Shown here: one piece after another, positions 10,623-63,991 of the stretch
Layout: every line of letters begins with the position of its first letter
Numbering within the stretch: the stretch's first letter is position 1
Source: Bacteroidales bacterium
Lineage (GTDB): Bacteria; Bacteroidota; Bacteroidia; Bacteroidales; F082
Reading direction: 5' to 3'
Length of the DNA stretch: 64,000 nucleotides
NCBI GenBank assembly: GCA_024710405.1
Contig: JANJUV010000018.1
Span: 1-64,000, forward strand
Position numbers and translations under genes: made by a program
Notes under the pieces: model-generated
What the model saw: the letters and a program-made list of their open reading frames with translations, nothing else
What the model was told of the DNA's origin: nothing
The model's database searches: none

Positions 10623-10757
10623 GAATTTTATCCACTGAAGTTAATCATAAAACACAACATATCAATTAAATAGAAAGATATTGCGACTGTTATCCAAAAA
10701 TAATCTAACTTTCGGCCTTGAAAATCTTTCTTGAAGATGCAAAAAATTGCCAAAACC

Positions 10758-13679
10758 ATGAAAACCCGATTGTTTTTAATTACGCTCATGCTTGGACTTT
10801 TGTTCCCGTCCGGCTTAATCAATTCAGCCTTTTCCCAAGGTAATAGTGAGGAATGCGTTTTTGACAAAGAACTTGCCAGTCGCATGCTTGCCTTACGCGA
10901 TGGATGGATTGAAGTGAACCTTCTTGCATTTGAGGATTGGCAAACGAGGGTTATATTGTATCATTCCATCTTTTCTGATCCGGAATTGTGTGCGAAGCAG
11001 TCAGAGAAAGAAGGCCAGCTAAGTGTTGAATATTGTGAAGCGGGTAAACGGTTGGATGCCCTTCACCAAGACCTGATCTTGAAAATTTCGGAGACAAACA
11101 AGATTGCTACAGGATATGACAAGGAGATGATTGCCAATATTCTGGATGTTTACGACACAGACAACAGCGGCAAACTTTTAAACTTCCTGATGGGGTCTGA
11201 CAGAGGCATTAATAATGCACTTTGTGCCAATTCTGATCCGTTCTGTACAAGCGATATTTATACTTTTCCTGCCGGTGTCAATTCAGGGACTGCCGAAAAC
11301 GGGCCTTACTATGGGTGTCTGGGCACACAGCCCAATCCTGCCTGGTACCATTTGAAAATATCCGTTGGTGGATACCTGCAGATATATATGTTCAGTACTC
11401 CATTACGCGATATTGACTTTATCATGTGGGGGCCTTATGATGATCCTGTGAGCCCATGTCCGAATCAGCTGACTGCAAACAAGGTTATCGATTGCAGTTA
11501 CTCGCCTGCTCCAACCGAGTATTGCGATATTGCCAATGCCCAGGTGGGCAAATACTACATACTATTGATAACCAATTATTCAAATCAACCATGTGATATT
11601 ACCTTCCAGAAAAGTGCAGGTACGGGTGAAACGGACTGTTCTATTCTTCCTCCGCTTACGAGCAGCAACAGTCCATTGTGTGTAGGTCAGAATCTTGAAT
11701 TGTATGCAGAAACGATCAATAATGCCACTTACTATTGGTCAGGCCCGAATAATTTTATATCAACCCAACAAAACCCGATCATACAGGATGTTCAGCTGAA
11801 TCATGCCGGATCATACAATTGTGTGATCACTGTAAACAACAACAGTAGTGACCCAAGTACAGCCCACGTAGTCGTAAATCCGACGCCAACACCGAACTTT
11901 AGTTTCAATCCAACCTGTTTTGGCGACACAACATTTTTTGTGGATGAATCAACGGTGAATCCACCTGAAGCAGAAATAACCATGTGGGAGTGGAGTTTCG
12001 GTGACGGAACTACTGCTTATGGCCCCGATCAGGAGAAAGTATATGGCAACCCCGGAACTTACCTTGTCAGCATGACTACCTATACCGGGTTTATGCAGTG
12101 TCCGAGGACCAAGAACAAAGCAGTAGTTGTAGCACAGGCTGCCGGTGCCAATGCCGGACCTGATGAAGAAATTCCCAATGGTTGGACAGTACAGTTACAA
12201 GGCGAGATTGAAGGTGGCTCAGGAGATTTCACTATTCAGTGGGAACCGGCTCATTTGCTGGATAATCCTTCCATCATCAATCCTACTACTGTGCCTATGG
12301 GTGCAACTACAGTGTTTACAATGAATGTAACAGATAATGCGACCAGTTGCATCAACAGTGACCAAATGACAGTAAGTGTAACAGGAGGTGTACTTGGTGT
12401 AACTGCGGAAGCAAGTCCTTCCGTAATCTGTCTGGGCGAAACAGTTCAGCTCAATGCTTTGCCAAGCGGGGGTTCAGGTGGATATACCTATACTTGGACC
12501 TCCAACCATGGAGATTTTAATTCGACCGAGAAGGAACCAGTGGTTAATCCCATTCAGACCACAGTCTATCAGGTATCCGTTTCTGATGGGTTTAATGCCA
12601 CAAGTGCTACAGTTACAGTAACCGTGAAACCCATGCCGGCAGCCAGTGCCGGCTCAGACCAAACCATTAATGTTGGTACATCTACACAATTGACAGGTTA
12701 TGCTACAGGTGGTTCGGGCGGCAATTATTCCTATCGCTGGACTCCTGCTGACTCCCTTATCAGTGCGAATGTTCAGAATCCAACAACCAAACTTTTGCAC
12801 AACACAACAGAGTTCTCTCTGATTATTGATGATATGAATGGTTGCTCAAGCACGCCGGATCAGGTACTCGTGCTTGTGGCCGGCGACCAGCTCGCCGTAT
12901 TCCCCCAGGCCAGCCCGGCTGAGATTTGTGTGGGTGGAAGCACTTCCATCAATGCCAATGCAACAGGCGGCGGTGGAAGCTATACCTACACGTGGACGGC
13001 CAATAATTCGGGCTGGACATCGAATAGTCCGAACCCGACGGTAAGTCCTGCACAGACAACGGTTTATACCATATCCGTTGACGATAGTTATAAGATTGTA
13101 ACAGGACAAGTAACTGTTATCGTTAACCCTTTGCCTGTTGTTGATATCAAACCTGCTGATATACCTTACTTCAGCAACGACACCATTAAAGTCTGTGTTC
13201 GTGATTCAGTATGGCTCGATGCCGGCAATCCGGGATTTTCCTACTTGTGGTGGAACCAAACGAGCAACAGCAGACTGAGGGCCTCAACGAACGGTAACTG
13301 GATAGATTTCCAGACACATTGGGTCAGAGTTACCAACCCGGTAACCGGCTGCGTATCTTATGATACATTGACTGTGTTTTTCGATTTTAATGCCTGTAAT
13401 ATTGGCGTGCCCGAACAACCAAGTCTCGATCAGTATATCAATATTCACCCAAATCCATCCAATGGCCTGTTCAACATTGATTTCAAAGATCTGCACGAGG
13501 CTGTAACCATGCGGGTTACTAACATGCATGGCCAGATGGTGGTCAACGAAATATCCTTTAATCCAATGAAAGACGGAAAGTCGTATGTGCTCGATCTGGA
13601 ACAGTATCCTGATGCCACCTACCTGCTTACCGTGCAGAGTGCCCGTGGCATCCTGATGAAACGTCTGATCAAGAAATAG
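10758..13679 (+). CDS. T9SS-sorted PKD-type exported protein, paralogue of preceding gene (973 aa)
   Basis: I start at the ATG giving MKTRLFLIT, the proper signal peptide (ends NSAFSQ). Longer starts (TTG 27 bases and ATG 21 bases upstream) only add residues before it. Residues ~20-120 are helical and Cys-bearing. Next is a domain with CANSDPFCTSDIYTFPAG and a DIDFIMWGPYDDP motif, widespread at the front of Bacteroidota PKD proteins. Four PKD-type repeats follow (one with FGDGTTAYGP), then the VCVRDSVWLDAGN / GNWIDFQT module shared with the 832-residue protein. The C-terminus is a type A sorting tail (NIHPNPSNGLF). It lies 46 bases before the next gene with no terminator between, so co-transcription is likely. 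Confidence 0.84.
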   Translation: MKTRLFLITLMLGLLFPSGLINSAFSQGNSEECVFDKELASRMLALRDGWIEVNLLAFEDWQTRVILYHSIFSDPELCAKQSEKEGQLSVEYCEAGKRLDALHQDLILKISETNKIATGYDKEMIANILDVYDTDNSGKLLNFLMGSDRGINNALCANSDPFCTSDIYTFPAGVNSGTAENGPYYGCLGTQPNPAWYHLKISVGGYLQIYMFSTPLRDIDFIMWGPYDDPVSPCPNQLTANKVIDCSYSPAPTEYCDIANAQVGKYYILLITNYSNQPCDITFQKSAGTGETDCSILPPLTSSNSPLCVGQNLELYAETINNATYYWSGPNNFISTQQNPIIQDVQLNHAGSYNCVITVNNNSSDPSTAHVVVNPTPTPNFSFNPTCFGDTTFFVDESTVNPPEAEITMWEWSFGDGTTAYGPDQEKVYGNPGTYLVSMTTYTGFMQCPRTKNKAVVVAQAAGANAGPDEEIPNGWTVQLQGEIEGGSGDFTIQWEPAHLLDNPSIINPTTVPMGATTVFTMNVTDNATSCINSDQMTVSVTGGVLGVTAEASPSVICLGETVQLNALPSGGSGGYTYTWTSNHGDFNSTEKEPVVNPIQTTVYQVSVSDGFNATSATVTVTVKPMPAASAGSDQTINVGTSTQLTGYATGGSGGNYSYRWTPADSLISANVQNPTTKLLHNTTEFSLIIDDMNGCSSTPDQVLVLVAGDQLAVFPQASPAEICVGGSTSINANATGGGGSYTYTWTANNSGWTSNSPNPTVSPAQTTVYTISVDDSYKIVTGQVTVIVNPLPVVDIKPADIPYFSNDTIKVCVRDSVWLDAGNPGFSYLWWNQTSNSRLRASTNGNWIDFQTHWVRVTNPVTGCVSYDTLTVFFDFNACNIGVPEQPSLDQYINIHPNPSNGLFNIDFKDLHEAVTMRVTNMHGQMVVNEISFNPMKDGKSYVLDLEQYPDATYLLTVQSARGILMKRLIKK

Positions 13680-13724: not shown

Positions 13725-15692
13725 ATGAATTTTGCCAAACAAATTTCGCGTTTCCTGATTGCAGGAGGAGTGTTGCTTGCATGTACCATGGACCTTAAGG
13801 CGCAGGAACCAACACCTTGTGATTATAAAAGACCCATGCAGGCCGACAATTGGAATTTTGGAGAGCGGGCACAATTAAACTTCAATGGTGGTGTTCCACA
13901 GGCTACCATTATGCCTGGTTCTATCAATCTGCCTAACGGAGTAGCATCCATCAGCGACGAAAATGGTCAGCTGCTGTTTTTTACTGATGGAATCAGGGTT
14001 TGGTCCGGAGGGTATTATTACCTGAATGATGCCACCGACCTGGCAGGAAATAACTTTTCCTCACAGTCGTCCATAATTGTTCCGCACCCCGGAAATCCCG
14101 ACCGATATTATGTTTTCACTGTTGATATGTATATCCCTCCTGTCTTTAATAAAGGTGTAAGATACTCCGTTGTGGAACGCGTTAATTTCACCTGGTCAAT
14201 CACACAGAAAAATGAAGTGTTGCTCAACAGTAATGCCCAAAAGATTACTGCTGTGGCCACGGATGATCAAAATGCCTTCTGGGTTATTGTTCATGGCTAT
14301 GCTGATCAAAGCAACAATCGTTTTTTTGCCTATAAAATTGATGCTGCAGGACTGAATATCACACCCACCATCAGCATTGCCGGTACACCTCATGCAGGTA
14401 ACGAGAACAACAATGCCGGCTATATGAAGGCATCTCCCGATGGAAACCGGATTGCTCTGGTTATACCGCATGATGGTATTGTTGAACTGTTCAACTTTGA
14501 TAAAGTAACCGGCAATGTAGCCCTGTCTGACGGAAGCGGCCCAGCAGCTTTTAACTATCCTTTTGGTCTGGAGTTTTCTCCTGATAATTCAAAACTTTAT
14601 ATGACAACTTCTCCGCTGGGCGATAACGTTAATTACCTGTATCAGTTTGACCTTAATACGACCAACTTTTTCTCCAATCCTTATATTGTTCACCAATACA
14701 CTGTTAACCAGCTCGAGGGTGCTGACAGCCTTATGGGCGCATTGCAACTTGCTCCTGACGGGAAAATCTATATGGCGAAATTCCGTAAAGGTGTTTTGGG
14801 CAAACAGGCTTTAGGCGTAATCTATAACCCAAACCGGCCAGGTGCTGCATGCAACTACAACTCGCTGAACAGCATTCCGAACAACGGTCTGAATCTGAAC
14901 GGTGCTTCCAGTTTGATAGGTATGCCCAATTTCGTGACGAGTTTTCTCGATATTCCACACTTCAACTGGATCAATGAGTGCCATACAGAAATTACTTATT
15001 TCGAACTGCGTAACGAAGCCAATATCAGCCAGATTACATGGGAATTCAACGATAATGGAGCAACTTCCAACCAGATTCTTACTCAGCACACTTTCAGTCA
15101 GCCAGGAACTTATGTTGTTGATGTTACCGAACGGTTCAACGACCTTGATTACAGCACAAGCCGTTCAATAACCATACATCCACTACCTGTTACAGATATC
15201 GGACAGGGTTCGGATACAATTTACCTGTTGCCTAATTCTTCCATAAGACTCGATGCCGGTGAGTTTGATCAGTATCTCTGGGAACCGTCAGGTGCTGTTG
15301 ATCGTTATTTCGATGTAACAGAAGAAGGTTGGGTAAAAGTTACGGTAACTGATGTGAATTGCTGCAAAAACAGCGACTCGGTTTATATTGTTTTTGCAAG
15401 CATTTATCTTCCCAATGCCTTCCATCCTAACAGTACAGTGCAACAGAACCGTACATTTAAGGTGATGGGTGCCACCAGTGCACTGGCTGAATTTGATTTC
15501 TATGTTTATAACCGCTGGGGCCAGTTGGTGTTCACCAGCTCCGATCCTTTACAGGGCTGGGATGGCGAAATAAAGGGCGAGCTGGCACCGGCAGGAACTT
15601 ATGCATGGGTTGTGATTTATAAAAGCTATGAAAGCGGACTTCAGTCAGCTAAGGAAATTGTACAAAGAGGCACCGTGAACCTGATACGATAA
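13725..15692 (+). CDS. Exported PKD protein with gliding-motility-type (type B) T9SS tail
   Basis: 655 residues. The N-terminal signal has LLAC followed by MDLKAQ, so either lipoprotein or ordinary cleavage is possible; the AQ-E cleavage is more typical. Residues ~30-420 form a beta-propeller-like region with repeated KITAVATDDQN- and MKASPDGNRIAL-type blades. A PKD domain lies at ~423-475 (TWEFNDNGATS, FSQPGTYVVDVTE). The last ~95 residues match the CHU_C / type B sorting domain: IYLPNAFHPN, FYVYNRWGQLVF, GWDGEIKG, APAGTYAW. Type B cargo generally stays on the surface and often goes with PorP/SprF partners; a porP-like gene lies at the far right of this window. The specific function is unknown. 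Confidence 0.87.
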   Translation: MNFAKQISRFLIAGGVLLACTMDLKAQEPTPCDYKRPMQADNWNFGERAQLNFNGGVPQATIMPGSINLPNGVASISDENGQLLFFTDGIRVWSGGYYYLNDATDLAGNNFSSQSSIIVPHPGNPDRYYVFTVDMYIPPVFNKGVRYSVVERVNFTWSITQKNEVLLNSNAQKITAVATDDQNAFWVIVHGYADQSNNRFFAYKIDAAGLNITPTISIAGTPHAGNENNNAGYMKASPDGNRIALVIPHDGIVELFNFDKVTGNVALSDGSGPAAFNYPFGLEFSPDNSKLYMTTSPLGDNVNYLYQFDLNTTNFFSNPYIVHQYTVNQLEGADSLMGALQLAPDGKIYMAKFRKGVLGKQALGVIYNPNRPGAACNYNSLNSIPNNGLNLNGASSLIGMPNFVTSFLDIPHFNWINECHTEITYFELRNEANISQITWEFNDNGATSNQILTQHTFSQPGTYVVDVTERFNDLDYSTSRSITIHPLPVTDIGQGSDTIYLLPNSSIRLDAGEFDQYLWEPSGAVDRYFDVTEEGWVKVTVTDVNCCKNSDSVYIVFASIYLPNAFHPNSTVQQNRTFKVMGATSALAEFDFYVYNRWGQLVFTSSDPLQGWDGEIKGELAPAGTYAWVVIYKSYESGLQSAKEIVQRGTVNLIR

Positions 15693-31716: not shown

Positions 31717-33432
31717 CTATTTAGCTATCTTGATCTTTGTGGTTAGTGAGGAGTTCGCTGAATTGACGCGCATGAGATAAATTCCATCCGCAAGGTCAGA
31801 AATGCTGATACTTTTGTTTTGGTTGCCTGAATTGACATGTCCCATTTCTTCTCTGTAAACTACTTTTCCGAGAAGGTTGATAATTTCAATGCTGGTGTTG
31901 GTGGCGCTTTCAAGGTTGTAATTTACATTGATCACATCGCGGGCAGGTACCGGATAAACGTTGAAATCGTTTATGCTGCTGGATTCATTGACCGATGTAA
32001 CCACCGGAAGAGGAATCATGTCACCACCTCCTGCAAGTACAACAAACAAACCAAAAGAAGGGCCGTTGCTGTTGTTTTCAGGATTGAGAAATCCGGAGGC
32101 GATTACAGACGCAGATGCACCATCAAGACCCAGTGTCTGAAGGGGAGCGCTGTAGGTAGCCACGGTGACGGTTCCTGATTCATCCCTGATGTCGATTACA
32201 TAATCTTCTGTAGGAAGTTCAAGGTAACCAGAGAATTCACTGTAGGCAAGATTGTCTACAATGGTTCCTGCACCGACACCCACCTCAACGACATCCACTA
32301 CAGGTGCATCAGTTGAACCATGAAAAACAAGCAGGTCAGTATTTGTGTTGCTGGTTGCAATTTCGCGCGACATGGGGTAGACATAGATGTCAAAGGGTAC
32401 GAAAGGATCGTAATTGGCTTCAACTACTAGTCCGTTGGCAACTAATGTGTACTTTCCGTTGCCTTCAAGAGTATATGTGTTCGACCAGATCGGATTTTCG
32501 GGGCTGGTGCTGTTTGGAGGAAGTATGGCAATTGTAAACTCTTCACCTGCAGGAGCATCTATGAAGGGAGTTGCTGTTCTGAAACCGAAGTTGTCAATCA
32601 ACAGTGCATCATTAAGCCAAACGTCAACTTCGATGGCAGCCAGATCTGCTGAGTTGTGAATTACCTGAACGCGTGCTGTGGTAATGTCTACCTGAGGCAG
32701 TGCCACAAGATCACCACCGGTTGACAGAGCAACAAATAAGCCGAAAGCCGGACCGTCGTTGTTATTTGCAGGATTGAGAAAACCTGAGGCAATCACTGAA
32801 ATCGCTTCACCGTCGAGGCCTAATGTTGCCAACGGGGCATCATACTGAGCAACAACGTCTGTTCCGGCCTCATTGCGTATCTGAAGTGAAAAGTCGAGTG
32901 TGGGTAATTCCAGATAACCTGCAAAAGCAGCATAACCCAGATTATCAACAATGGTTCCTGCGCCTACACCTACTTCTACTACATCCACAACAGGTGCGTC
33001 TGTTGAACCATGATAAACCAATACATCAGTATTGGTGCTCACAGTGGCTGACTCACGACCTTGCGCAAAAACAGATATGTCGAACGGAACAAAAGGATCG
33101 TAATTCTCCTCGACAACTAGTCCGCTTGCAACCAAAAGGTACGTTTCATTGTTTTCAAGGGTATATGACTTGGACCAGATGGGATTATCAGGACTTGTGC
33201 TGTTAGGAGGAAGAATAGCGATGGTAAATTCCACACCTGCCGGAGCATCAATGAATGGAGTTGCTGTACGGAATTCGAAATCATCGATCAGAAGAGTGTT
33301 ATCGAGCCAAACATCGACTACAGCTGCTGCTGCATCGGCTGAATTGTGCACTACCTGCACACGGGCTTGTGAAAATGCGCTGAACTGAGCCAGAAGCATG
33401 ATCGAACTTAAAACTAAAGTGTAAATTTTCAT
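31717..33432 (-). CDS. T9SS-sorted protein with two DUF4397 domains
   Basis: 571 residues: signal peptide 1-22, then two DUF4397 copies (~24-250 and ~255-480). Each has the RVQVVHNSADAAAAVVDVWL-type start and a second half beginning VYHGSTDAPVVDVVEVG. Long stretches are identical between copies (FRTATPFIDAPAG, FTIAILPPNSTSP, NYDPFVPFDI, TIVDNL), so the duplication looks fairly recent. A type A sorting tail (~492-571: NVYPVPARDVINVNY, ADGIYLMRV, KIKIAK) ends it. DUF4397 domains are extracellular beta domains without known enzyme activity. It lies downstream of the ECF sigma gene and shares an upstream 27-nt block with it, suggesting regulation by the neighbouring regulators. Confidence 0.9.
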   Translation of the reverse strand: MKIYTLVLSSIMLLAQFSAFSQARVQVVHNSADAAAAVVDVWLDNTLLIDDFEFRTATPFIDAPAGVEFTIAILPPNSTSPDNPIWSKSYTLENNETYLLVASGLVVEENYDPFVPFDISVFAQGRESATVSTNTDVLVYHGSTDAPVVDVVEVGVGAGTIVDNLGYAAFAGYLELPTLDFSLQIRNEAGTDVVAQYDAPLATLGLDGEAISVIASGFLNPANNNDGPAFGLFVALSTGGDLVALPQVDITTARVQVIHNSADLAAIEVDVWLNDALLIDNFGFRTATPFIDAPAGEEFTIAILPPNSTSPENPIWSNTYTLEGNGKYTLVANGLVVEANYDPFVPFDIYVYPMSREIATSNTNTDLLVFHGSTDAPVVDVVEVGVGAGTIVDNLAYSEFSGYLELPTEDYVIDIRDESGTVTVATYSAPLQTLGLDGASASVIASGFLNPENNSNGPSFGLFVVLAGGGDMIPLPVVTSVNESSSINDFNVYPVPARDVINVNYNLESATNTSIEIINLLGKVVYREEMGHVNSGNQNKSISISDLADGIYLMRVNSANSSLTTKIKIAK

Positions 33433-53758: not shown

Positions 53759-54976
53759 CTATTTTTTATTTGCTGAAGCATAGGCATCGAAATCAAAGGT
53801 AAGGGCAAATCTGAGTGTATTTTGAAGAGGATTGTTACGGCTGTCGACAGGGATAAGGTAGGAAAAGTCGAGACCGAAAACACTATACTTCAAACCGGCT
53901 CCAAGTGTAAAGAATTTACGGTTTCCTTTGGTTTGATCCTCATAAAAAAATCCTCCTCTGAGTGCAAAAACATCGTTATACCAATATTCGGTGCCTACGC
54001 TAAAACTAAGTTCACGCATTTCCTCACCAAAGCCATCAGGCGCATCGTAGAATGACTGAAGCATGCCTCCTACAACCGAGACCTCGTTTGATTTACCATC
54101 CTGGATGATGAAGTTTCCTGAGTTATCAAGAATGGGTCTGGCATTGCTGTCGAGCAATATCCGCGGGGGAGAGGGGACGAGCAGTTTGTTGATATCAATT
54201 GAAAAAGCCATTTTGTTATAGTCGTCGAGCTCAAGTGTTAGCGTTGGTCCCATTTTGAGGTTGGTAGGGATAAAATCCTTTTTGATGCTCGATTTGCTGT
54301 AGCCCATTTTGTTTCCGATATTGGAAATGTTGATACCCCAGGCAAAATTGGATCCGATATCGCTGAACCAATTAACATTCTTTTGCCAGTAGACTGCCAC
54401 GTCGGCCGCAACCGAAATGCCGGCAGTTGTTTCTGCACCCTGAACATTCTGTCCGAGGGTTAAGTTTGAGTATATAAACCTACCGGCAACAGCACCTGAG
54501 AGGTTGTCGGTGAGTTTTCTTGCATAGGTGGCGTCAAATGCCCACTCACTTGGTCTGTAGTAGACTCCTGTGATACCATCATTGGTAAAGAAAATATCGC
54601 CAAGTGTAAAAAACCTCAATGAAGCAGCAACGGTAGACATGTCATCGATTCTTTTGGCTCCTGCTACATAAGCCAGATTGATATCCGGAACAAGGTTTCT
54701 GAGCCAGGGGCTATAGGCCAGCCCGATGCTTAAGTCACTTTTGATTTCGGCAAATTTAGCGGGATTCCAGTGCATGGAGTATACATCGGGCTCACTTGAA
54801 ACACCGGCATCGCCCATTGAACCTGCGCGGGCATCTGGTGCAATCATCAAAAAGGGTACAGCGGTGGTGATCACATTCAGCCCGGAGTTCCTGCCTGAAA
54901 GATTCCCGTAATTCTGGGCCTGCATCATTGATCCTGAAATGATCAGTAAGGCTGCGATAAAGAATTTAAACTTCAT
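53759..54976 (-). CDS. porV: T9SS outer-membrane shuttle protein PorV (LptO)
   Basis: 405 residues, signal peptide 1-20 (ends MMQAQ). The FadL-like barrel starts with the PorV block VITTAVPFLMIAPDARAGSMGDAGVSSEPDVYSMHWNPAKFA, which is highly diagnostic, and continues with YSPWLRNLVPDINLAYVAGAKR. PorV takes T9SS cargo from the SprA translocon to the PorU sortase. It is the last gene of the porU-porU-porV run and also has its own -7 box. Confidence 0.95.
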   Translation of the reverse strand: MKFKFFIAALLIISGSMMQAQNYGNLSGRNSGLNVITTAVPFLMIAPDARAGSMGDAGVSSEPDVYSMHWNPAKFAEIKSDLSIGLAYSPWLRNLVPDINLAYVAGAKRIDDMSTVAASLRFFTLGDIFFTNDGITGVYYRPSEWAFDATYARKLTDNLSGAVAGRFIYSNLTLGQNVQGAETTAGISVAADVAVYWQKNVNWFSDIGSNFAWGINISNIGNKMGYSKSSIKKDFIPTNLKMGPTLTLELDDYNKMAFSIDINKLLVPSPPRILLDSNARPILDNSGNFIIQDGKSNEVSVVGGMLQSFYDAPDGFGEEMRELSFSVGTEYWYNDVFALRGGFFYEDQTKGNRKFFTLGAGLKYSVFGLDFSYLIPVDSRNNPLQNTLRFALTFDFDAYASANKK

Positions 54977-55062: not shown

Positions 55063-58000
55063 TTAGCGGCTGATGATTAATTTACTGTTGAGGATTCCTG
55101 ACACCCCATTTTTATCTTTAGCTGTCAACCTGTAAATGTACAATCCTCCGGGAAGCAAATTGCCTTTGTGGTCTCTGCCATTCCAAAATAACTGATCCGA
55201 TTGTCCGCCGGCACTGTTCACGCGCCCTTCGAGGCTGGCAACCCATTGCCCGTCAATCCTGAAAATATCGATGATTATGTCAAACTGTCCATTCAGTTTG
55301 TTGTGGTTAAACCTGAAGGATGTTTCATCAGTAAATGGATTGGGAATATTCATTAAACCCGAAAGATTTAAAGGAGCCAGTTCATCCAAAACAAACCAGG
55401 TTTCTGCTTCTGTGGAATTATTATGCAGATCCCAGGCTTTCAAACGGACAGTATGTTTCCCCTGAGGAAGTCCGTTCATTGGGAATAGTACTGTGCCATC
55501 CGTATAGCTATCTTTATCAGGGAAATAGTATTCGTTGAGAATATACTTGTTATTTGCTTCGTCATTTATTGTGAGTGTAATGTCGCGGCCGATGATATTT
55601 CCCAAATGGTTTATTCCCTGCGGATCGGCCAGTCGGGCGATTAAAACAGGATTGTCGCTGATTAAACCTCCTGTTTTAAAAGAAAAATCATTGATATAAA
55701 GTCCAACATTTGGCCCGTTTTGGTCGGGAACAATTTCTTCATCGGTGCCACCGACAATCAGGTTTTGATAAACACCAGAAGCATCGGTGAAACGAACTGT
55801 ATCAACCGCATAATAGCTTATCCGGCCTGATCCGTATTGAAAGCTGATATCTTTAGGCAACATGAATTCAAAACTAAACTCACCGTTAACAATACTTATT
55901 TGTCCCTGATACAATAATTTGTCAAAGTAGGAAATGTTCACTGGCTGACTGTTGTTGTCGTTTCCGAGAGTACGGTAGATCGATTTCTTGTCAAATACCT
56001 TTGGATACAGGTATCCGTTGAAGCCAACATCTGTCTGGCCGTTAGTTAGCACAATCTTACCGCTTATTTTTACATGTGACATGGCATTTATGGTGTCGGG
56101 CTCGAGACCGGCCTGTATTGAATTGAATGTTGTTGTAACAACTCTTTTGACAGGAGATACAAGGCGAAGAGCCGGGTCACCAAGCAAAACAAAATTATAG
56201 ACGGAAGAACTTGGCGGGTTTTTGCTTGCACGCATCACATCACCCAAACGGGGCAGTTGCGGATTGTTGCTGCTAAACATGGCTTCATACAGTTTCTTGT
56301 TCAGCGCAAAGTTTGAATGTGCCCAGGCTAAACGGGTTGTGGTCATCAGGGCAACAGCACCGCCTCTGGGGTTAAGGATGAGTTTTTCACCTGCTGATTC
56401 GAAATGTGGGTCGTCGAAACGACTGAATTCGCAGGTTGCTGTTATGAATAGCGGCAATTGATTATAATTTGAAAGCCCGATAATGTCATTCACCGGGAAT
56501 ACGCGCTCATCTGTAAGCCCGTTTACTCCGCCGTGACCAGTATAGTTAACAATAAGTTGTCCTTTGCTGATCAGGTCAATCAATTTGGTATTGGCTTGAG
56601 GATAGCGGTGACCTCCAGGCACTGATACCTGCTGGTAATTGTCGAGGTAGAGTTTTTTTATATTCAGTACGTTTCTGGCTGTATCAACTACTTTGGACAA
56701 CGACTCAGCCTGATCAAGGTGCAGGTTGTTGTCCTGATCGTCTGCAACGAACAGAATCTCGTTTCGCCATCCCTGCATTACTTCTTTGGTATTGCTCAGA
56801 TAGGAGCGTATTTTTCCGACCATTGAGGCGGCTTCTTCGGCTGTTCGCACAGGGAGTCTGCCGATGCCAAGATCAACAGCACCTGTCATATTAAAACCTT
56901 CATCGTATCCGAGCAATCCGAAGAAATCATCACTCACAAAACTTCCTGTTTGTGTCAGAGAATTTTTCGACTGGTATGTCGGAACAAAATTTGTGTTCTC
57001 GTCAAGGCGGTTTTTATAATCATAAGAAGCATCGCCAAACAGCAGCAGGTAGCGCATCCCTCCGTTGGTCCTCAAATGAAGCATCCGGGCAAAGTCGCGA
57101 ATAGCTGTTGCATCAGGCACACCAGATGCAAACTCATTGTATACATCCTTGAGGTTTACCACTCTGCTGATCAAACCTTCATCCAGAAAATGTATTTCTG
57201 ATAATTCAATCGCCTGCTCAAGAAAGTCGGGATGACAGATGATCAGCATATCACAGTCGGTAATTCCGTGCAGATTTTGATTGGGAATCTGCTGTGCTCC
57301 GAGAATGCTATGATATGCATCCGGTTCATGAATGATATAAGTCCGCAAACTGTCGGTGTGTGCAACAAACTCAAAACCACCCTGATATTTAGTAAAAGTA
57401 TGTTTGACAGGCCTGAGGGGATCAGTGATCTCCCATAAATCATAGTTGTTCGATGTTGCATTTGCTGTGAACCGGGTGATGTTTCCATCGCCGATAACAG
57501 TGTAGTCCCTGAACTCGAGCTGCCCGCCTCTGAAGGTAATGTTTCTCCAGGCATTCAACCTGATATAGTTCAGCCATCCTCTGGACCCTATATCGTTGGC
57601 ATGGAACCTGACCTTTATTTCGATGTCAGGGCTTTGTGGGAAAAATGTCAATGTTTTGGTGCTTTCGCGGGCAAAGGTCGACTGATTGACAAGCAGTTTC
57701 GTCATTACATCCTGATCGATAACCAGACTGTCGTTGATCCACACACTGTAAGCTACATCTTCTGTGACGGATCTGCCGATATATTGTATTTGAAAGTAGA
57801 CAGGCTCAGAGAACAGTATATCCGGAAAACTGAACAAGAAGGTTTTCTCACTGTCTGTATTATCGAAGCTTTCACCAAACCATTCTTTTCCGCTGAGCAA
57901 TAGGTTTTCCAATTCCTGCTCATGGTGTGCCATATCAACAAATTTTTCTGTTTCGCGGGTGACCTGACCTGTTGCCTGGTTTTTTTGTTGCAACCTTAGT

Positions 58001-58899
58001 CCGGGTGTGTCAGCTACAGTAAGAAAATAATAAAGGGTGTCGCTAAAAAGGTTTACCTGATGCTCGAAACGTCCGTTAAAAATATTGTATGGCCATTCAA
58101 CGGGTCCTTCAGCATAGAAAAGGATATAATCTGTTGGGTCGAAAACGTTGTCTTCCTGCCCGTGTACATAAATTGCATTTTCTTTCAAGTCATCAATACG
58201 GTCACGTGTGTTTGACTCAGGTAGCATTCCATTGCCGTTTCCGTAGATGCGGATGTTTCGCGGATCAATTGAGGCAGGTAAAATCCCTATTGCAGTTAAC
58301 TGATCATAGCTTATTCGATGGATTCCTTGTTGGTTTACGGCCATTTTGTACCAGATACCCTTGTTCAGCACCGACTCGGAAGCGTAAGCAGGAGTTGGTT
58401 CTTCAGCTTTTAACTCAAAAACAGGTAAGGTGCGAAAATGTATCAGAAAGTGTCGAAGCCGTTCAAGGTTATGTCCGTTTTTGCGCATTGGAACAATGAG
58501 CAGTGAATGAATTCCGGTTTCACCCGGCAGATAAACCCGGAATTCGTTTCCAATAAGGTCTTCATCAGCGTATGGGTTTGCTCTGTCAATCGGAATAAGG
58601 TCGGTTTCGAGAATATCCAGTTGAACATCAGTTATTTTCAATCCCGATCCGTTCGGCAAAATTGCCTCAAAAACGGGCAAACTACCTGTTTCAGCTATCA
58701 GAATGGAACCGGTGAACTCAGGTATTCTGAATGTTTGTCCATTATTTGATCGGATATATTGATCAGCAGACCAGTGAATAGTGAATTCCACAGGTTCAGG
58801 AGTCAGATTTTCGTGCTGGCCAATAACCCGATTACTGATTATGGTGAAAGCAACCAGTACGATCAGAAGGATTATGTTATGAAGGTTAAATGTTTTCAT
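55063..58899 (-). CDS. porU: T9SS sortase PorU, C25 gingipain-type (copy next to porV)
   Basis: 1278 residues, signal peptide 1-28 (ends RVIGQ). A large N-terminal region (~30-540) contains KMAVNQQGIHRISYDQL and FDPTDYILFYAEGPVEW. The C25 peptidase domain (~545-920) has the catalytic dyad: His789 in YTGHGGVNG and Cys823 in TATCEFSRFDDP, 34 residues apart. The C-terminal FlgD-Ig-like/sorting region is NIPNPFTDETSFRFNH and GGLYIYRLTAKD. PorU removes the CTD and transpeptidates cargo to anionic LPS. It begins 7 bases after the stop of its paralogue. Confidence 0.94.
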   Translation of the reverse strand: MKTFNLHNIILLIVLVAFTIISNRVIGQHENLTPEPVEFTIHWSADQYIRSNNGQTFRIPEFTGSILIAETGSLPVFEAILPNGSGLKITDVQLDILETDLIPIDRANPYADEDLIGNEFRVYLPGETGIHSLLIVPMRKNGHNLERLRHFLIHFRTLPVFELKAEEPTPAYASESVLNKGIWYKMAVNQQGIHRISYDQLTAIGILPASIDPRNIRIYGNGNGMLPESNTRDRIDDLKENAIYVHGQEDNVFDPTDYILFYAEGPVEWPYNIFNGRFEHQVNLFSDTLYYFLTVADTPGLRLQQKNQATGQVTRETEKFVDMAHHEQELENLLLSGKEWFGESFDNTDSEKTFLFSFPDILFSEPVYFQIQYIGRSVTEDVAYSVWINDSLVIDQDVMTKLLVNQSTFARESTKTLTFFPQSPDIEIKVRFHANDIGSRGWLNYIRLNAWRNITFRGGQLEFRDYTVIGDGNITRFTANATSNNYDLWEITDPLRPVKHTFTKYQGGFEFVAHTDSLRTYIIHEPDAYHSILGAQQIPNQNLHGITDCDMLIICHPDFLEQAIELSEIHFLDEGLISRVVNLKDVYNEFASGVPDATAIRDFARMLHLRTNGGMRYLLLFGDASYDYKNRLDENTNFVPTYQSKNSLTQTGSFVSDDFFGLLGYDEGFNMTGAVDLGIGRLPVRTAEEAASMVGKIRSYLSNTKEVMQGWRNEILFVADDQDNNLHLDQAESLSKVVDTARNVLNIKKLYLDNYQQVSVPGGHRYPQANTKLIDLISKGQLIVNYTGHGGVNGLTDERVFPVNDIIGLSNYNQLPLFITATCEFSRFDDPHFESAGEKLILNPRGGAVALMTTTRLAWAHSNFALNKKLYEAMFSSNNPQLPRLGDVMRASKNPPSSSVYNFVLLGDPALRLVSPVKRVVTTTFNSIQAGLEPDTINAMSHVKISGKIVLTNGQTDVGFNGYLYPKVFDKKSIYRTLGNDNNSQPVNISYFDKLLYQGQISIVNGEFSFEFMLPKDISFQYGSGRISYYAVDTVRFTDASGVYQNLIVGGTDEEIVPDQNGPNVGLYINDFSFKTGGLISDNPVLIARLADPQGINHLGNIIGRDITLTINDEANNKYILNEYYFPDKDSYTDGTVLFPMNGLPQGKHTVRLKAWDLHNNSTEAETWFVLDELAPLNLSGLMNIPNPFTDETSFRFNHNKLNGQFDIIIDIFRIDGQWVASLEGRVNSAGGQSDQLFWNGRDHKGNLLPGGLYIYRLTAKDKNGVSGILNSKLIISR

Positions 58900-58906
58900 G
58901 GCCAGA

Positions 58907-61900
58907 TTAATTAGGCATATAGATCAATTTTGATTGTATTTCACCCACCATACCATCTTCGGTAGTCACTTTCAGACGGTAAAGATACAAACCTTTGCCC
59001 AGTAAATCACCTTGTGCTGTGCGCCCATCCCAGTCAATGGGTTCAGAGCGGAAAGCAGATGGGGTGATATTGCGGGTTATTTTTGTAATGGTGCGCCCCG
59101 TAAGATCATAAACAATTAACTCAACTGATAGTTCCTTTCCTGTCTGGTTGTGGTTAAAAACAAAACTCGTTCGTTCACTGAAAGGATTCGGGAAGTTAAT
59201 CAGGTTTTCAAGCTTGATCGAATTGCCCGGTACAACAACAAAATCGATGGTGGCTTCGGATGAATTGTTAAATACGTCCCAAACCTTAAGTTTCAGGCTA
59301 TGATGACCTGGTTTCAGGTTTCTGAATGGGTAACGAATACTTCCGCTGGCCTGACGGTTTATTTCTCCCTCATAGAATTCGTTGATTACCGTAGTTGAAC
59401 TGGTGGCTCCTGAAAGGGTGGCAACAATGTCGTGTCCGATGCCCGTTCCTGTTGTGTTGATTCCGTTTTCATCATCAATATAAGCAAGTAGTATGGGGTT
59501 TTCGTTGGTCATGCCACCCGGGACAAAAGTAGTATCGTTGATAAACAAACGAATCAATGGTCCCTGATCATCAGATGTGCTGTTTTCGTTGAAGCCTCCG
59601 ATAACAATGTTTTCGTGGTATCCGGCTGCATCCGAATTCAGGTCTGTGGCATAATAACTGATTCTTCCGGGTCCGTATGTGTAGGCGATATCTTTGGGAA
59701 GCATAAATGAGAACTCAAAAGAGCCGTCAGTTATCTCAGCCTTACCGTTGTATATGATGCTGTTGAACAGATAGAATTCTTGTGGATATCCGTTTTCATC
59801 TCCTTTTGTGCTGATCTCTGAGGCTTTGTCAAAAACAGTGGTATAGAGGACTCCATTGTATTGTGACAGAGCAGTTCCGTTGTCATCAGCAACATACCCT
59901 TTGATCGTGACCACATCCAGAGCTTTCAGGGTGTCGGGTTGTTGTCCAATTGGGTTTCCATTGATATGTGTAGTTATCACTTTGTTATGTGGCAACGCCA
60001 GTTGCAGGGCAGGATCACCAAGCAGCACAAACTTTCTGTCGTTCGCATCGCCTCTGAGTTTTGATCGCCGGATTACATCACCAAAACGAGGATACTCTCC
60101 ATTGTTTTTCGAGAACAGGTTATCTTTGAAAATAGCAAGATTTAATATCCGGTTAGCAGACGCATAGGTTGCGCGGGCCGTTGTAAACATGGCAATTGCA
60201 CCGCCTTTGGGATTCAGTATTACCATTTCGCCTGCAGAGGTTCGCTGCGCATCGTCATAGCGGCTGAATTCACAGGTAGCTGTAATAAACACAGGCATAT
60301 TGTCATAATTAGTCCATCCATTGATATCAGCGATTTCCAGAAATCTCTCGTGCCCCCAGCCAACTTCTCCGCCATGTCCGGAATAGTTCATGATCAGCGT
60401 GCCTTTGTCCATCCTTTTGTTTATGGCATTATTTACATCAGGAGCTTTCTGGCCTGATGGTGTTGCAATTTGCTGGTAGGCGTCAAGATAAATTTTATCG
60501 AAATTTATTGCCCTGACAGTTGAATCTATTTGTCTGTAAAGATATTCGGCATCACTGAGGTGCAGGTTCCCATCACTGTCATCTGAAACAAAAGTGATCA
60601 TGTTTCGCCAGGGACCGTGCACTTTGTCTGATGAACTGGTATAGTGGAACACTTTGTCAACCATTTGTCGTGCCTCTTCAATACTGCTGACAGGTAGTCT
60701 GCCTATTCCAATATCAAGCAGGTCAGCCGTATTGCCTCCTTCACCGTCATCCAGATAGCCGTAGTAATCGTCAGAAGCAATTGAGCTTACAATATTCAAT
60801 GAGGGAAGCGACTGCCAGGTGGGTACGTAATTGCTGTTGCCGGGTAAAATATCCTTGTAATCAAATGAAGCGTCACCAAAAAGAAGCAAGTAACGGATTT
60901 GTTTTCCGGGGCTGCTGTCTTTGTAAAGCATACGCATGAAATCTCGAATGGCTGTGATGTCCTGAGCCCCGCTCGAAAATTCGTTATAGATGGGTTGAGG
61001 AGTGGTTACAAAAACATTCAGTCCGCTTCGGGTGCGGTGAAAATCTGCGAGCCTGTTCGCCTCTTCGATAAAGTCAGAATGACTGATAATTACATAATCA
61101 ATGTTACGCAGACCATGAAGGTTCTGATTGTCCACTTTTCCTAATGGTTCAACGGTCATAAATGAACTTCCGTCAAAAGCAATAAACTGCCTGATTGAGT
61201 CGGAAGGAGAGAGAAAACTAAGGTTGTTGTCTTGTACATTTGTTTGCACCTGAAAGGGATTAGTGGGTATGGTGATGTCCCATACACGCACTTGCTGACC
61301 AGCACCACTTATGGTAAACCTATTTGTGCCGCCTGTGAGCACAGCCTGTGGATTTCTGAATTGCAGCTGAGGACCGTCAAAATATAGCTGACGCCATAAA
61401 TTTATGCTGATATAGTCGAGCCATCCTCTTGATGATGAGACGCTTCGCTGATATCTGAGCTTTATCTCCTGATTTCCGGATAATGGAATAAACTTAAACT
61501 CGGTTCTTTTGTCTTTGGCGAAGCTGTATCCCGTTTGGGTTGTTGTCTCCATATTCAGTGAAGCTTTCTGTTCGCCATTGGCATCGAAAACAAAAACTGC
61601 CGGATTAAAGTTTCTTGATGCTACTTCACTTACAACAAATGCCTCTTTGGAGGAATTTACATTGGAAAAAGGAAAAGTAAAAGTTCGTTCGAGGGTAACA
61701 TCAAACAACTCACCATACCAGGTTCGTCCCGTGTTTGTGAGGTTATACAAGTCGTCCTGATGCAAGGCATAATCAAGAAAATCATTCACAACAGTTTCGG
61801 TGTTGCCCGTATGATTTTGAATCTGTATACGTTTGCCGGAGCCAAGGTCGGATGTTATGAAATAATAACTATAATCGTCATAATAGTTGTTCCTGTGGTA

Positions 61901-62713
61901 AAAGTATCCGTTAAAGGGATTGTATTTCCATGTCAATGGCCCTTCAGCAAACATAAGGACGTAATCATTCTGATCGAATTTTCCGTCTTCTTCGCCCACA
62001 ACCTGAATCGGGATCTCTGCGAGGTCATCAATTCTGGGTTCATTATTTTTTTCGGGCAAAGGAGCTCCACCATTGCCAAAAACACGGATGTTTCTGGGAT
62101 TGACCGTTGCCGGATTAATTCCCAGAGCCTGAAGTTCAGAGTATCCGATACGATACATGCCGGTTTTGCTGATCCTGAATTTATGCCAGTTACCTGTTGC
62201 CAGAATTGATTGTGTGGCATATTTTACGGCAGTTGTATTTTCTCTCTTATTATCCGGACTGAGTTTAATGTTGGCTGTAAATGAAATCAGCCTTTCGGTT
62301 TTGTTCTCCTTCTGGATAAACCTCAGTGGTGTGACAAATATGTTGAGGACAATACGGTCGCGTGTGCGGCTGATGTTGTACGTATATATAAAGGTGTTCC
62401 CCACAGAAATTTGTTTGGCGATTTCTTGTTCCCTCTCAGGGACTAATTCGGTTACCAGATCATCAAGTACTAATTCGGCTTTCAGATGTTCATCGTGAAC
62501 ATCAAGCTGGATATGGAACAAAGGAGTTCTTGAGTCGTACAGGTCAAATGAGGCACCAATAAAATTAAGCCTTGAAGTGGTTTCATAGCCATCCATCTTC
62601 AGGCTGTCCGGTTCTGACCATTCTATCTTGTACTTACCAGTATATAAAACTTCCTGTGCATGAGCGATGCCCGATAATAACAGTACAGAAAACAACAATA
62701 ATGATAATTTCAT
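58907..62713 (-). CDS. Second PorU-type T9SS sortase (tandem paralogue)
   Basis: 1268 residues from the ATG giving MKLSLLLFSVLLLSGIAHAQ, a clean signal peptide; a start 27 bases upstream adds non-signal residues. Same order as PorU: KFRISKTGMYRIGYSEL, FDQNDYVLMFAEGPLTW, and C25 domain with His780 in YSGHGGEVG and Cys814 in TATCEFSRYDDA, again 34 residues apart. The C-terminal sorting region is NFPNPFSERTSFVFNH and GKGLYLYRLKV. It keeps all visible catalytic residues, so it is probably active. Either gene could be the orthologue of the known PorU; PorZ is a different fold and is not this protein. Confidence 0.9.
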   Translation of the reverse strand: MKLSLLLFSVLLLSGIAHAQEVLYTGKYKIEWSEPDSLKMDGYETTSRLNFIGASFDLYDSRTPLFHIQLDVHDEHLKAELVLDDLVTELVPEREQEIAKQISVGNTFIYTYNISRTRDRIVLNIFVTPLRFIQKENKTERLISFTANIKLSPDNKRENTTAVKYATQSILATGNWHKFRISKTGMYRIGYSELQALGINPATVNPRNIRVFGNGGAPLPEKNNEPRIDDLAEIPIQVVGEEDGKFDQNDYVLMFAEGPLTWKYNPFNGYFYHRNNYYDDYSYYFITSDLGSGKRIQIQNHTGNTETVVNDFLDYALHQDDLYNLTNTGRTWYGELFDVTLERTFTFPFSNVNSSKEAFVVSEVASRNFNPAVFVFDANGEQKASLNMETTTQTGYSFAKDKRTEFKFIPLSGNQEIKLRYQRSVSSSRGWLDYISINLWRQLYFDGPQLQFRNPQAVLTGGTNRFTISGAGQQVRVWDITIPTNPFQVQTNVQDNNLSFLSPSDSIRQFIAFDGSSFMTVEPLGKVDNQNLHGLRNIDYVIISHSDFIEEANRLADFHRTRSGLNVFVTTPQPIYNEFSSGAQDITAIRDFMRMLYKDSSPGKQIRYLLLFGDASFDYKDILPGNSNYVPTWQSLPSLNIVSSIASDDYYGYLDDGEGGNTADLLDIGIGRLPVSSIEEARQMVDKVFHYTSSSDKVHGPWRNMITFVSDDSDGNLHLSDAEYLYRQIDSTVRAINFDKIYLDAYQQIATPSGQKAPDVNNAINKRMDKGTLIMNYSGHGGEVGWGHERFLEIADINGWTNYDNMPVFITATCEFSRYDDAQRTSAGEMVILNPKGGAIAMFTTARATYASANRILNLAIFKDNLFSKNNGEYPRFGDVIRRSKLRGDANDRKFVLLGDPALQLALPHNKVITTHINGNPIGQQPDTLKALDVVTIKGYVADDNGTALSQYNGVLYTTVFDKASEISTKGDENGYPQEFYLFNSIIYNGKAEITDGSFEFSFMLPKDIAYTYGPGRISYYATDLNSDAAGYHENIVIGGFNENSTSDDQGPLIRLFINDTTFVPGGMTNENPILLAYIDDENGINTTGTGIGHDIVATLSGATSSTTVINEFYEGEINRQASGSIRYPFRNLKPGHHSLKLKVWDVFNNSSEATIDFVVVPGNSIKLENLINFPNPFSERTSFVFNHNQTGKELSVELIVYDLTGRTITKITRNITPSAFRSEPIDWDGRTAQGDLLGKGLYLYRLKVTTEDGMVGEIQSKLIYMPN

Positions 62714-62794
62714 GGTGTGGTGGTTGTTATTTCTTGCCAATAATTCGATCCTCAGACCTGAATGAATAACTGGTTTTGTTTTAAGCTGGCTCTA

Positions 62795-62802: not shown

Positions 62803-62983
62803 GCAATTTTTGCTTAAACATAATTGCAACAAAAAAATGTTTCGACACCAACTGCTTTGAGTCTATCAACGAAATCCTCCGGAAAATATTGCTGTGAGAA
62901 GTTTTTCTTAAACAAATGTTATTTCGTAATGAAAATCGTTGTATCATTGTACGCCATTTCGCAACCAAAACTATAACAGATCA

Positions 62984-63991
62984 ATGTTGAAAAAGTTTGT
63001 TATTATCATCTTTTGCGTATTGATGGCCGGGGTTACAAACCGGCTATTTGCGCAAGACCCGGCCTTTTCTCAGTTTTATGCGAATCCTCTTTTTTTGAAT
63101 CCGGCGCTTACCGGGTCCACTGAATGCGGAAGGATTCATCTGAACTACAGGAATCAATGGCCTTCGCTAAGCAATGCATTCATAACTTATGCTGCAAGTT
63201 ACGATCAAAGTATTCCGGGAATCAACAGCGGTATCGGTCTAATGTTTATGAACGATCAGCAGGGTGACGGAGCCTACAACAGAACATCAGTCGGAGGCTA
63301 CTATGCCTACAATTTGAAAGTAAGTGAGCCTGTTGTGGTTAGCTTTGGCGTCAAAGGGGCCTACTATCAGGAGAAACTGGATTGGAACAAATTTATATTT
63401 GCCGACCAGATTAATCCTACTACAGGCCAGATTTCTGATATCAGCAGTGAGACACCACCTTCCAAGACAAACGTAACAGCAATAGATTTCGGTGCTGGTC
63501 TTATGATGGGATATCTTGACAAACTTTTTGTTGGTGTTGGTGTTGATCACCTGACCGAGCCCGATTTGTCATTTTATGATAACTCGGAAAACAAAATGCC
63601 GATGAAGATTACTGCGCATGCCGGTACCATGATCAATGCCACCGAAGGCACCTTCGGAGGCTATTATCAGGGCGACATAATGCTTCAGCCAAACATATTA
63701 TACCAGCAGCAGGGAAAATTTCAGCAGTTGAACTTCGGTTTATATGTGAACAAGTATCCATTTGTCATTGGCACCTGGTTCAGACATAATTTTGATAATG
63801 CTGATGCTGCAATCATTCTGGTTGGACTTCATTACGACAACTTCAGGTTTGGTTACAGCTATGATTACACCATGTCAAAACTAGGTGGCGCCAGCGGGGG
63901 TGCTCATGAAATTTCTTTTGCATGGGAGTTCTGTGTATATAAAGAACCGTCAAGAAGACGCATCAGGGCAATAAATTCACCCTCTTTTTAG
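62984..63991 (+). CDS. PorP/SprF family T9SS outer-membrane protein
   Basis: 335 residues from the ATG giving MLKKFVIIIF; signal peptide ends RLFAQ. The mature start DPAFSQFYANPLFLNPALTGS is the family signature; barrel motifs include HLNYRNQWPSLSNAF, YDQSIPGINSGIGLM, VSFGVKGAYYQEKLDW and a C-terminal FGYSYDYTMSKLGGASGGAHEISFAWEF. Proteins of this family work with type B (CHU_C) cargo, in several cases one specific partner each. The only type B cargo visible here is the 655-residue protein 47 kb away, so no pairing can be claimed. It is divergent from the porU genes. Confidence 0.92.
   Translation: MLKKFVIIIFCVLMAGVTNRLFAQDPAFSQFYANPLFLNPALTGSTECGRIHLNYRNQWPSLSNAFITYAASYDQSIPGINSGIGLMFMNDQQGDGAYNRTSVGGYYAYNLKVSEPVVVSFGVKGAYYQEKLDWNKFIFADQINPTTGQISDISSETPPSKTNVTAIDFGAGLMMGYLDKLFVGVGVDHLTEPDLSFYDNSENKMPMKITAHAGTMINATEGTFGGYYQGDIMLQPNILYQQQGKFQQLNFGLYVNKYPFVIGTWFRHNFDNADAAIILVGLHYDNFRFGYSYDYTMSKLGGASGGAHEISFAWEFCVYKEPSRRRIRAINSPSF

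Follow-up and report, generated by a model that had tools for sequence, protein, structure and literature searches.

Why should a type IX secretion system (T9SS) carry two PorU sortases side by side? The question is raised by a 64,000-nucleotide stretch from a Bacteroidales bacterium (contig JANJUV010000018.1, positions 1 to 64,000; hereafter the window), in which two complete porU genes, porU-A and porU-B, stand in tandem upstream of porV. In the accessible parts of the T9SS literature, PorU is treated as the sole peptidase and sortase of the system. Our analysis points to an old duplication that left two active-looking enzymes. Judged from sequence, we give about an even chance to a reading in which A and B are two active sortases of one attachment complex, with A indispensable and B accessory, that share a large set of type A cargo. 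The coordinates of all features are collected in the table below.

Both gene products match the PorU model NF033707 over its whole length (1334 bits for PorU-A and 1222 bits for PorU-B; cut-off 420), and the best solved relative of both by sequence is Porphyromonas gingivalis PorU, 6za2 (563 and 438 bits). The two copies are 39% identical to each other over 1255 columns. Two other identities were considered. A gingipain-type secreted C25 peptidase failed, with the PorU scores far above those of gingipain R, which reaches 20 bits for PorU-A and is not listed for PorU-B at E 0.001. PorU2 (NF052324) was rejected at 174 bits for PorU-A and 189 bits for PorU-B against a cut-off of 450. PorU-A is taken to start at the ATG at 62713, giving 1268 residues; the mechanical open reading frame (ORF), 58907-62740, begins nine codons earlier with TTG. 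The N-termini of both copies are hydrophobic as judged by eye and form putative signal peptides.

These results bear out a sequence-only reading of the window, which had proposed two complete PorU-type C25 sortases 7 bases apart upstream of porV, each with the catalytic His and Cys at the same 34-residue spacing; the ORF coordinates and alignments agree on each point. That reading had also given the order as second sortase, PorU, PorV. The tandem position upstream of porV stands, but transcription on the minus strand runs from PorU-A through PorU-B to porV, and the copy nearer the single-copy PorUs by tree distance is A, the one away from porV. The FlgD-like tail assigned to both copies is better explained otherwise: the Pfam FlgD_ig model scores 19.7 for PorU-A, below its cut-off of 27, and is not listed for PorU-B, while TIGR04183 scores 24 for PorU-A, just over its cut-off of 23, and is again not listed for PorU-B. 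The tail is best read as PorU's own C-terminal domain (CTD). PorV is presumably the common shuttle of both enzymes.

Structure models were made of the cores of both proteins, without the first 160-170 residues. The mean predicted local distance difference test (pLDDT) score was 86.7 for PorU-A (m52370e92419f, residues 163-1268) and 88.0 for PorU-B (mcde3f1f56570, residues 170-1278), and the top Foldseek match of both was 6za2 (E 7.7e-85 and 1.9e-74, respectively). Superposition of the whole models on 6za2 gave a global template modeling (TM) score of only 0.53 in both cases, so domain placement may differ between the models and the solved structure. VIA-align, applied to the PorU-B model alone, placed gingipain R first via the catalytic domain (Z 38.4 over 321 residues), above the whole of 6za2 (Z 29.7 over 864 residues). 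Both predicted cores have the PorU fold, with a catalytic domain, Ig-like domains and a CTD.

The catalytic residues are retained across the homologs. His and Cys are both present in 79/79 rows of the A clade, in 73/74 rows of the B clade (the remaining row has a gap) and in 65/65 rows of other single or dispersed PorUs. In six genome pairs, the proportion of nonsynonymous differences (pN) is 0.15-0.29 against a proportion of synonymous differences (pS) of 0.75-0.84 for both copies; silent sites are saturated here and in all A and B comparisons of nonsynonymous to synonymous rates (dN/dS). Together, we infer that both copies are catalytically competent, active-looking sortases.

To place the two copies, PorU sequences shorter than 800 residues were dropped, leaving 239 rows, from which 72 were used for a mixture-model tree and 24 for an approximately unbiased (AU) test; removal of 12 rows with identical last 700 residues left 227 for FastTree. 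In the 72-row tree, one clade holds 22 of 23 B copies, with a Shimodaira-Hasegawa-like approximate likelihood ratio (SH-aLRT) support of 99, and another holds 21 of 23 A copies together with two single copies from A-only genomes of the window's family, f1 (support 90). The exceptions are the A copy of L094, which is unplaced, and the L220 pair, which is an independent duplication. The 227-row tree gives the same division, with 69 of 74 second copies in the B clade (support 100) and 70 of 74 first copies in the A clade (support 87); both copies of L100, L101, L220 and L172 fall outside these clades, as does the B copy of L102. Forcing the f1 copies together in the 24-row tree changed the likelihood by -97.8 log units (p-AU 2e-7), which rejects a duplication local to the window's family. 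Within genomes, the median A-B identity is 39.4%, and both copies resemble an ortholog elsewhere more than they resemble each other in 67 of 69 genomes. On these trees the duplication is old and would predate the divergence of a set of families including at least 17 of the order sampled, which is the outcome that the sequence-only reading had associated with an old and functional split: two deep clades with orthologs in many genomes. A recent duplication or an assembly artifact, for which no support was found, is rejected by the 39% identity, the recurrence of the same pair in 68 further loci and the AU result, and has next to no probability.

The pair is rare across the phylum and recurrent within the order. 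A phylum-wide sample comprised 296 genomes of at least 90% completeness. With a PorU threshold of E 1e-150 and the best two candidates per genome scored, 196 have PorU and 194 of these have one; the other two are the window's genome and G222, which has two pieces. Within the order, PorU was found in 130 of 148 genomes and the A/B pair in at least 19 of the 130, spanning 17 family codes. In 18 of these 19 the pair lies on one contig, and in G068 the copies lie near the ends of two contigs. The window's family has two adjacent copies on one contig in 21 of 25 genomes; G024 carries its copies on two contigs, and G004, G015 and G019 have a single PorU. Named hosts of the pair include Bacteroidales bacterium UBA6192, a Lentimicrobiaceae metagenome-assembled genome (MAG; L189) and a Marinilabiliales MAG (L195). 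porU has also been duplicated independently, giving sister pairs in tandem at L100, L101 and L220 and dispersed sister pairs at L105/L106 and L107/L108. Two extra PorV-like ORFs lie directly upstream of the independent pair at L220 (7459-9906).

Gene order is well preserved in the A/B pairs. All 69 unique pairs have A and B on the same strand; the gap between them ranges from -368 to 307 bp (median 23 bp), and porV lies directly downstream of B in 55 of the pairs. In the other 14 no porV was found downstream; 8 of these have at least 2.2 kb of downstream sequence (L096, L097, L098, L099, L167, L180, L184 and L206), so A and B can stay linked where the link to porV is gone. Where a single copy remains, it can be A: the PorUs of G004, G015, G019 and L185 fall with A, lack a neighboring B and have PorV within about 430 bp. 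Single B-clade copies without a full A (L114, L152, L154, L156 and L159) lie at or near contig ends.

We then compared shuttle and acceptor genes in nine f1 genomes, of which six carry the pair and three are A-only. Each has a single full-scoring PorV (400-446 bits) and a single PorZ over the cut-off, and no second full-scoring PorV or second PorZ over the cut-off was found in the nine; G014 has one further PorZ match, below the cut-off. PorZ is a known carrier of anionic lipopolysaccharide (A-LPS). A division of the two sortases by lipid acceptor, one option in the sequence-only reading, is conceivable but receives no support from this single PorZ with or without B. Other members of the PorV/PorQ family above 90 bits number two in G000, G001, G009, G010, G013 and G015, three in G014, and one each in G004 and G019. 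Equivalog scans of these further members in G000, G004 and G015 identified the 165-bit member of G000 as PorQ (334 bits, cut-off 220) and the sole member of G004 as PorQ; the 142-bit member of G000 and the 131-bit member of G015 fit no named equivalog.

A short motif distinguishes the two clades (positions given as A/B, with the 62740 start for PorU-A). The motif opens with the invariant Arg856. Of the 79 A-clade rows, 57 have R-A-T, 17 R-P-T, 4 R-L-T and 1 R-T-T, so T858 is invariant in A (79/79). At this position the 74 B-clade rows have A (64), S (6), T (2), V (1) or a gap (1). R-L-A is found in 62 of 74 B-clade rows, and among the other rows R-L-V is commonest (27/65). The singles near the root have R-L-A (L118, L122 and L103), R-I-A (L104) or R-L-S (L119 and L121), and all have N at 902; K occupies position 903 in 73 of 79 A-clade rows. 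Since the nearest singles share the R-L-A-like motif of B, the derived state is A's. A C25 protein from contig C22, whose best solved relative is gingipain R (354 bits), allows a comparison with gingipain R: through a gapless local alignment with it, residues 857-858 fall opposite gingipain R 281-282, which adjoin Tyr283-Trp284, a pair that we take to form the S1 wall. The motif would thus sit beside the S1 wall of the substrate pocket. The residue after GHGG also varies, with Glu in 97% of A against 52% of B.

Cargo tails were counted in the same nine f1 genomes. Type A tail matches number at least 133, 150, 115, 150, 134 and 147 in the six pair genomes, with the best 150 candidates scored in five of the six; the A-only genomes have 43, 51 and 93. 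Type B matches number 6-17 in the pair genomes and 5, 4 and 2 in the A-only genomes. Across the order, first-look counts (excluding the 18 of 148 genomes without PorU) gave median type A tail candidates per megabase (Mb) of 45.6 for the A/B group (19 genomes), 38.3 for genomes with other extra PorU matches (17) and 23.0 for those with a single copy (94). With p values that ignore kinship, A/B genomes differ from singles (p 1.3e-5), as do the other-extra genomes (p 0.003), and the two groups with extra copies do not differ from each other (p 0.20). Seven of the 17 other-extra genomes lie outside the trees (G043, G044, G053, G125, G137, G148 and G163); the group also includes G030, with two partial matches, and G109, whose second match belongs to the pseudo-sortase family described below. 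Fewer than 80 candidates were found in none of the 19 A/B genomes and in 47 of the 94 singles.

These data lead us to the following proposal. An old porU duplication would have produced two catalytically competent tandem sortases, mostly upstream of porV. A would be the copy that cells keep, as suggested by its slower evolution and by the absence of B alone from A-only genomes. B would belong to the same attachment complex as an accessory enzyme, and it evolves faster overall: measured against ten single-copy PorUs, the second copy is the more distant one in 23 of 23 pairs, including the independent L220 (Wilcoxon p 2.4e-7), in a test that ignores shared stem branches. Both would draw on one PorV and one PorZ/A-LPS supply. 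With differing pocket walls, the derived state being A's, the two may together handle type A tails in greater number or variety than a single enzyme does, in line with the higher type A tail counts of pair genomes. On this reading the two genes would be co-transcribed, and both enzymes would be active at the surface, share a shuttle and an acceptor, and differ in the tails that they cut.

Several observations, besides the neglect of stem branches just mentioned, weigh against this proposal. In the 24-row tree, the B clade has a support of only 61 and the single-copy PorU of L119 joins the B side with a support of 91. Since L119 and L121 sit close to the A/B root, A may have been lost early in that part of the tree; singles of this kind may have branched before the duplication or lost one copy early. 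By its motif, B is not the copy with a new pocket, and only four positions (339/338, 858/858, 903/902 and 1153/1155) separate the clades at 75% or more in each. All six pair genomes and G015 have a further member of the PorV/PorQ family (129-146 bits) that goes unlisted in G004 and G019, so a second shuttle for B is possible. Large tail counts in singles (at least 150 candidates in 16 of 94, up to 448) indicate that a second sortase is unnecessary for a big cargo load, and the 93 tails of the A-only G015, in 2.4 Mb, reach the per-Mb level of pair genomes.

The strongest rivals to this proposal are an A-B heterodimer and plain dosage. PorU of P. gingivalis is inhibited by dimerization via a beta-hairpin, according to the accessible part of a review (PMC10202324). 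In that latent dimer the hairpin of one monomer blocks the active site of the other, and the solved structure 6za2 is itself titled 'dimeric latent PorU'. The latency roles could accordingly be split over two genes, with B keeping A latent during export, or the two enzymes could form a lasting complex on PorV. The linkage of A and B in the eight loci with no porV found downstream would fit such a partnership, as would a stretch kept in both copies (median 38 residues in A and 39 in B) and assumed to align with the hairpin. That assumption follows the 2021 PNAS paper on the PorU dimer, which is reported to place the hairpin in the first Ig-like domain. B, however, is unlike a dead partner, with its catalytic residues kept in all but one row, and A manages without B in three f1 genomes; we consider the heterodimer rather unlikely. 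Dosage or backup, in which two enzymes do the same job for a high cargo load and their sequence differences are drift, is equally compatible with the cargo counts: tail density is about twofold higher in pair than in single genomes and is also high with other extra copies, two of the three A-only genomes have few tails, and few positions differ strictly between A and B. Against drift stand the persistence of two separate clades, with nearly all copies closer to foreign orthologs than to each other, and the contrast between an invariant T858 in A and a variable residue in B. We regard dosage, too, as improbable.

A division of labor between type A and type B tails, which the sequence-only reading had offered as an example, fares worse. 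Both tail types do occur in the window, as it had stated, and in the genome, and the lower number of type B tails in A-only genomes (2-5) than in pair genomes is what such a split would predict and a further point against our proposal. A-only genomes nevertheless still carry type B tails, and their type A tails are fewer too. In addition, the accessible parts of PMC10202324 and PMC12618676 describe type B tails as using PorP/SprF shuttles, not PorV, and one of the two states that they are probably not cleaved. We therefore consider this division very unlikely. The shared processing of type A cargo by A and B remains our preferred reading.

Separately from the pair, we observed a third, PorU-derived family of 875-995 residues, whose alignment to the PorU model (1095 positions) breaks off at 852-916. 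Its 11 rows form one clade on the B side (FastTree support 100, in a tree that omitted the L195 pair), a position in which long branches may mislead. The catalytic His is kept in 11/11. At the catalytic Cys position, L275 and L277 have Cys and the other 9/11 have S, T, G or a gap. A type A tail scores above the cut-off of 23 in 9/11 (23.8-39.2 bits); the exceptions are L276, at 19.4 bits, and L240, for which no tail is listed. Most members would thus be Cys-less pseudo-sortases whose PorU CTD has given way to a cargo-type type A tail. The family was not seen in the window's genome at E 1e-150 and is present in the window's genus (G001).

Other C25 genes were also noted. Besides the porU pair, the window's own genome encodes three C25 proteins. 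All carry type A tails and score about 85 bits or less against NF033707. Contig C22 (L233:3371-10662) carries tandem secreted C25 peptidases with type A tails beside a LolC/E-like permease gene, and contig C2 (L234:3275-7339 and 9849-12215) encodes a divergent C25 protein of 1354 residues, also ending in a type A tail, at a distance of about 2.5 kb from porZ.

Table. Features of the porU-A/porU-B locus in the window, followed by features of other loci (locus handle, then positions).
Feature	Coordinates	Strand	Basis
PorU-A, first PorU sortase of the tandem, 1268 aa	58907..62713	-	NF033707, 6za2, A clade, structure model
PorU-B, second PorU sortase, 1278 aa	55063..58899	-	NF033707, 6za2, B clade, structure model
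Intergenic gap PorU-A/PorU-B, 7 bases	58900..58906	-	ORF coordinates
PorV	53759..54976	-	NF033710, 466 bits, cut-off 250
PorU-A catalytic His780 codon (GHGG)	60374..60376	-	Alignments; residues counted from 62713
PorU-A catalytic Cys814 codon (TATCEFSR)	60272..60274	-	Alignments; residues counted from 62713
PorU-B catalytic His789 codon	56533..56535	-	Alignments
PorU-B catalytic Cys823 codon	56431..56433	-	Alignments
PorU-A discriminating pair A-T after invariant Arg	60167..60172	-	Clade alignment; opposite gingipain R 281-282
PorU-B discriminating pair L-A, residues 857-858	56326..56331	-	Clade alignment
PorP/SprF-family gene, divergent from PorU-A	62939-63991	+	243 bits, cut-off 90.55
Type A cargo tail	31732-31959		
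Type B cargo tail	15408-15629		
PorV/PorQ-family protein, no named equivalog	L281:671-1765; L283:848-1912		144 and 132 bits, subfamily cut-off 90
Third-family members	L235:5083-8034; L236:4213-7191; L237:695-3607; L238:4174-7161		
Third-family members	L239:603-3542; L240:87-2714; L274:4447-7407; L275:4304-7255		
Third-family members	L276:5737-8688; L277:4695-7643; L278:4600-7581		

Taken further, and held only tentatively, much of the order may possess a two-sortase T9SS in which A and B act as a joint enzyme with different pocket walls, each serving its own type A tail class or controlling the latency of the other, alongside a third branch of mostly Cys-less secreted pseudo-sortases. If true, PorU would stand for a family of core, accessory and dead enzymes instead of one housekeeping enzyme. 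Among the open PMC titles and abstract openings listed, a scope that leaves out most subscription papers, none concerns a two-PorU system and none contains 'PorU2'; the accessible part of a T9SS phylogeny (PMC7323717) contains neither 'duplication' nor 'paralog'. How PorU picks cargo to attach versus release is described as unsolved in the accessible part of a review (PMC10202324). Genomes with A and B beside A-only relatives offer a natural comparison for this choice, and the motif beside the putative S1 wall points to specific residues.

Compared with known systems, both copies resemble P. gingivalis PorU (6za2, NF033707) in a core of about 1100 residues that covers the whole model, a Cys-His dyad, a PorU-type CTD and porV downstream. 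They differ in being two diverged tandem copies instead of one and in having about 170 N-terminal residues outside the 6za2 alignment. With the putative PorU2 (NF052324) they share membership among related C25 proteins, but their scores lie far below its cut-off. Gingipains and other secreted C25 peptidases have the same C25 catalytic fold, although PorU is far closer by sequence. Gram-positive bacteria likewise have several anchoring transpeptidases in one cell, from an unrelated enzyme family; there, several sortase classes per genome with a division of labor are established, whereas for the PorU pair we infer such a division.

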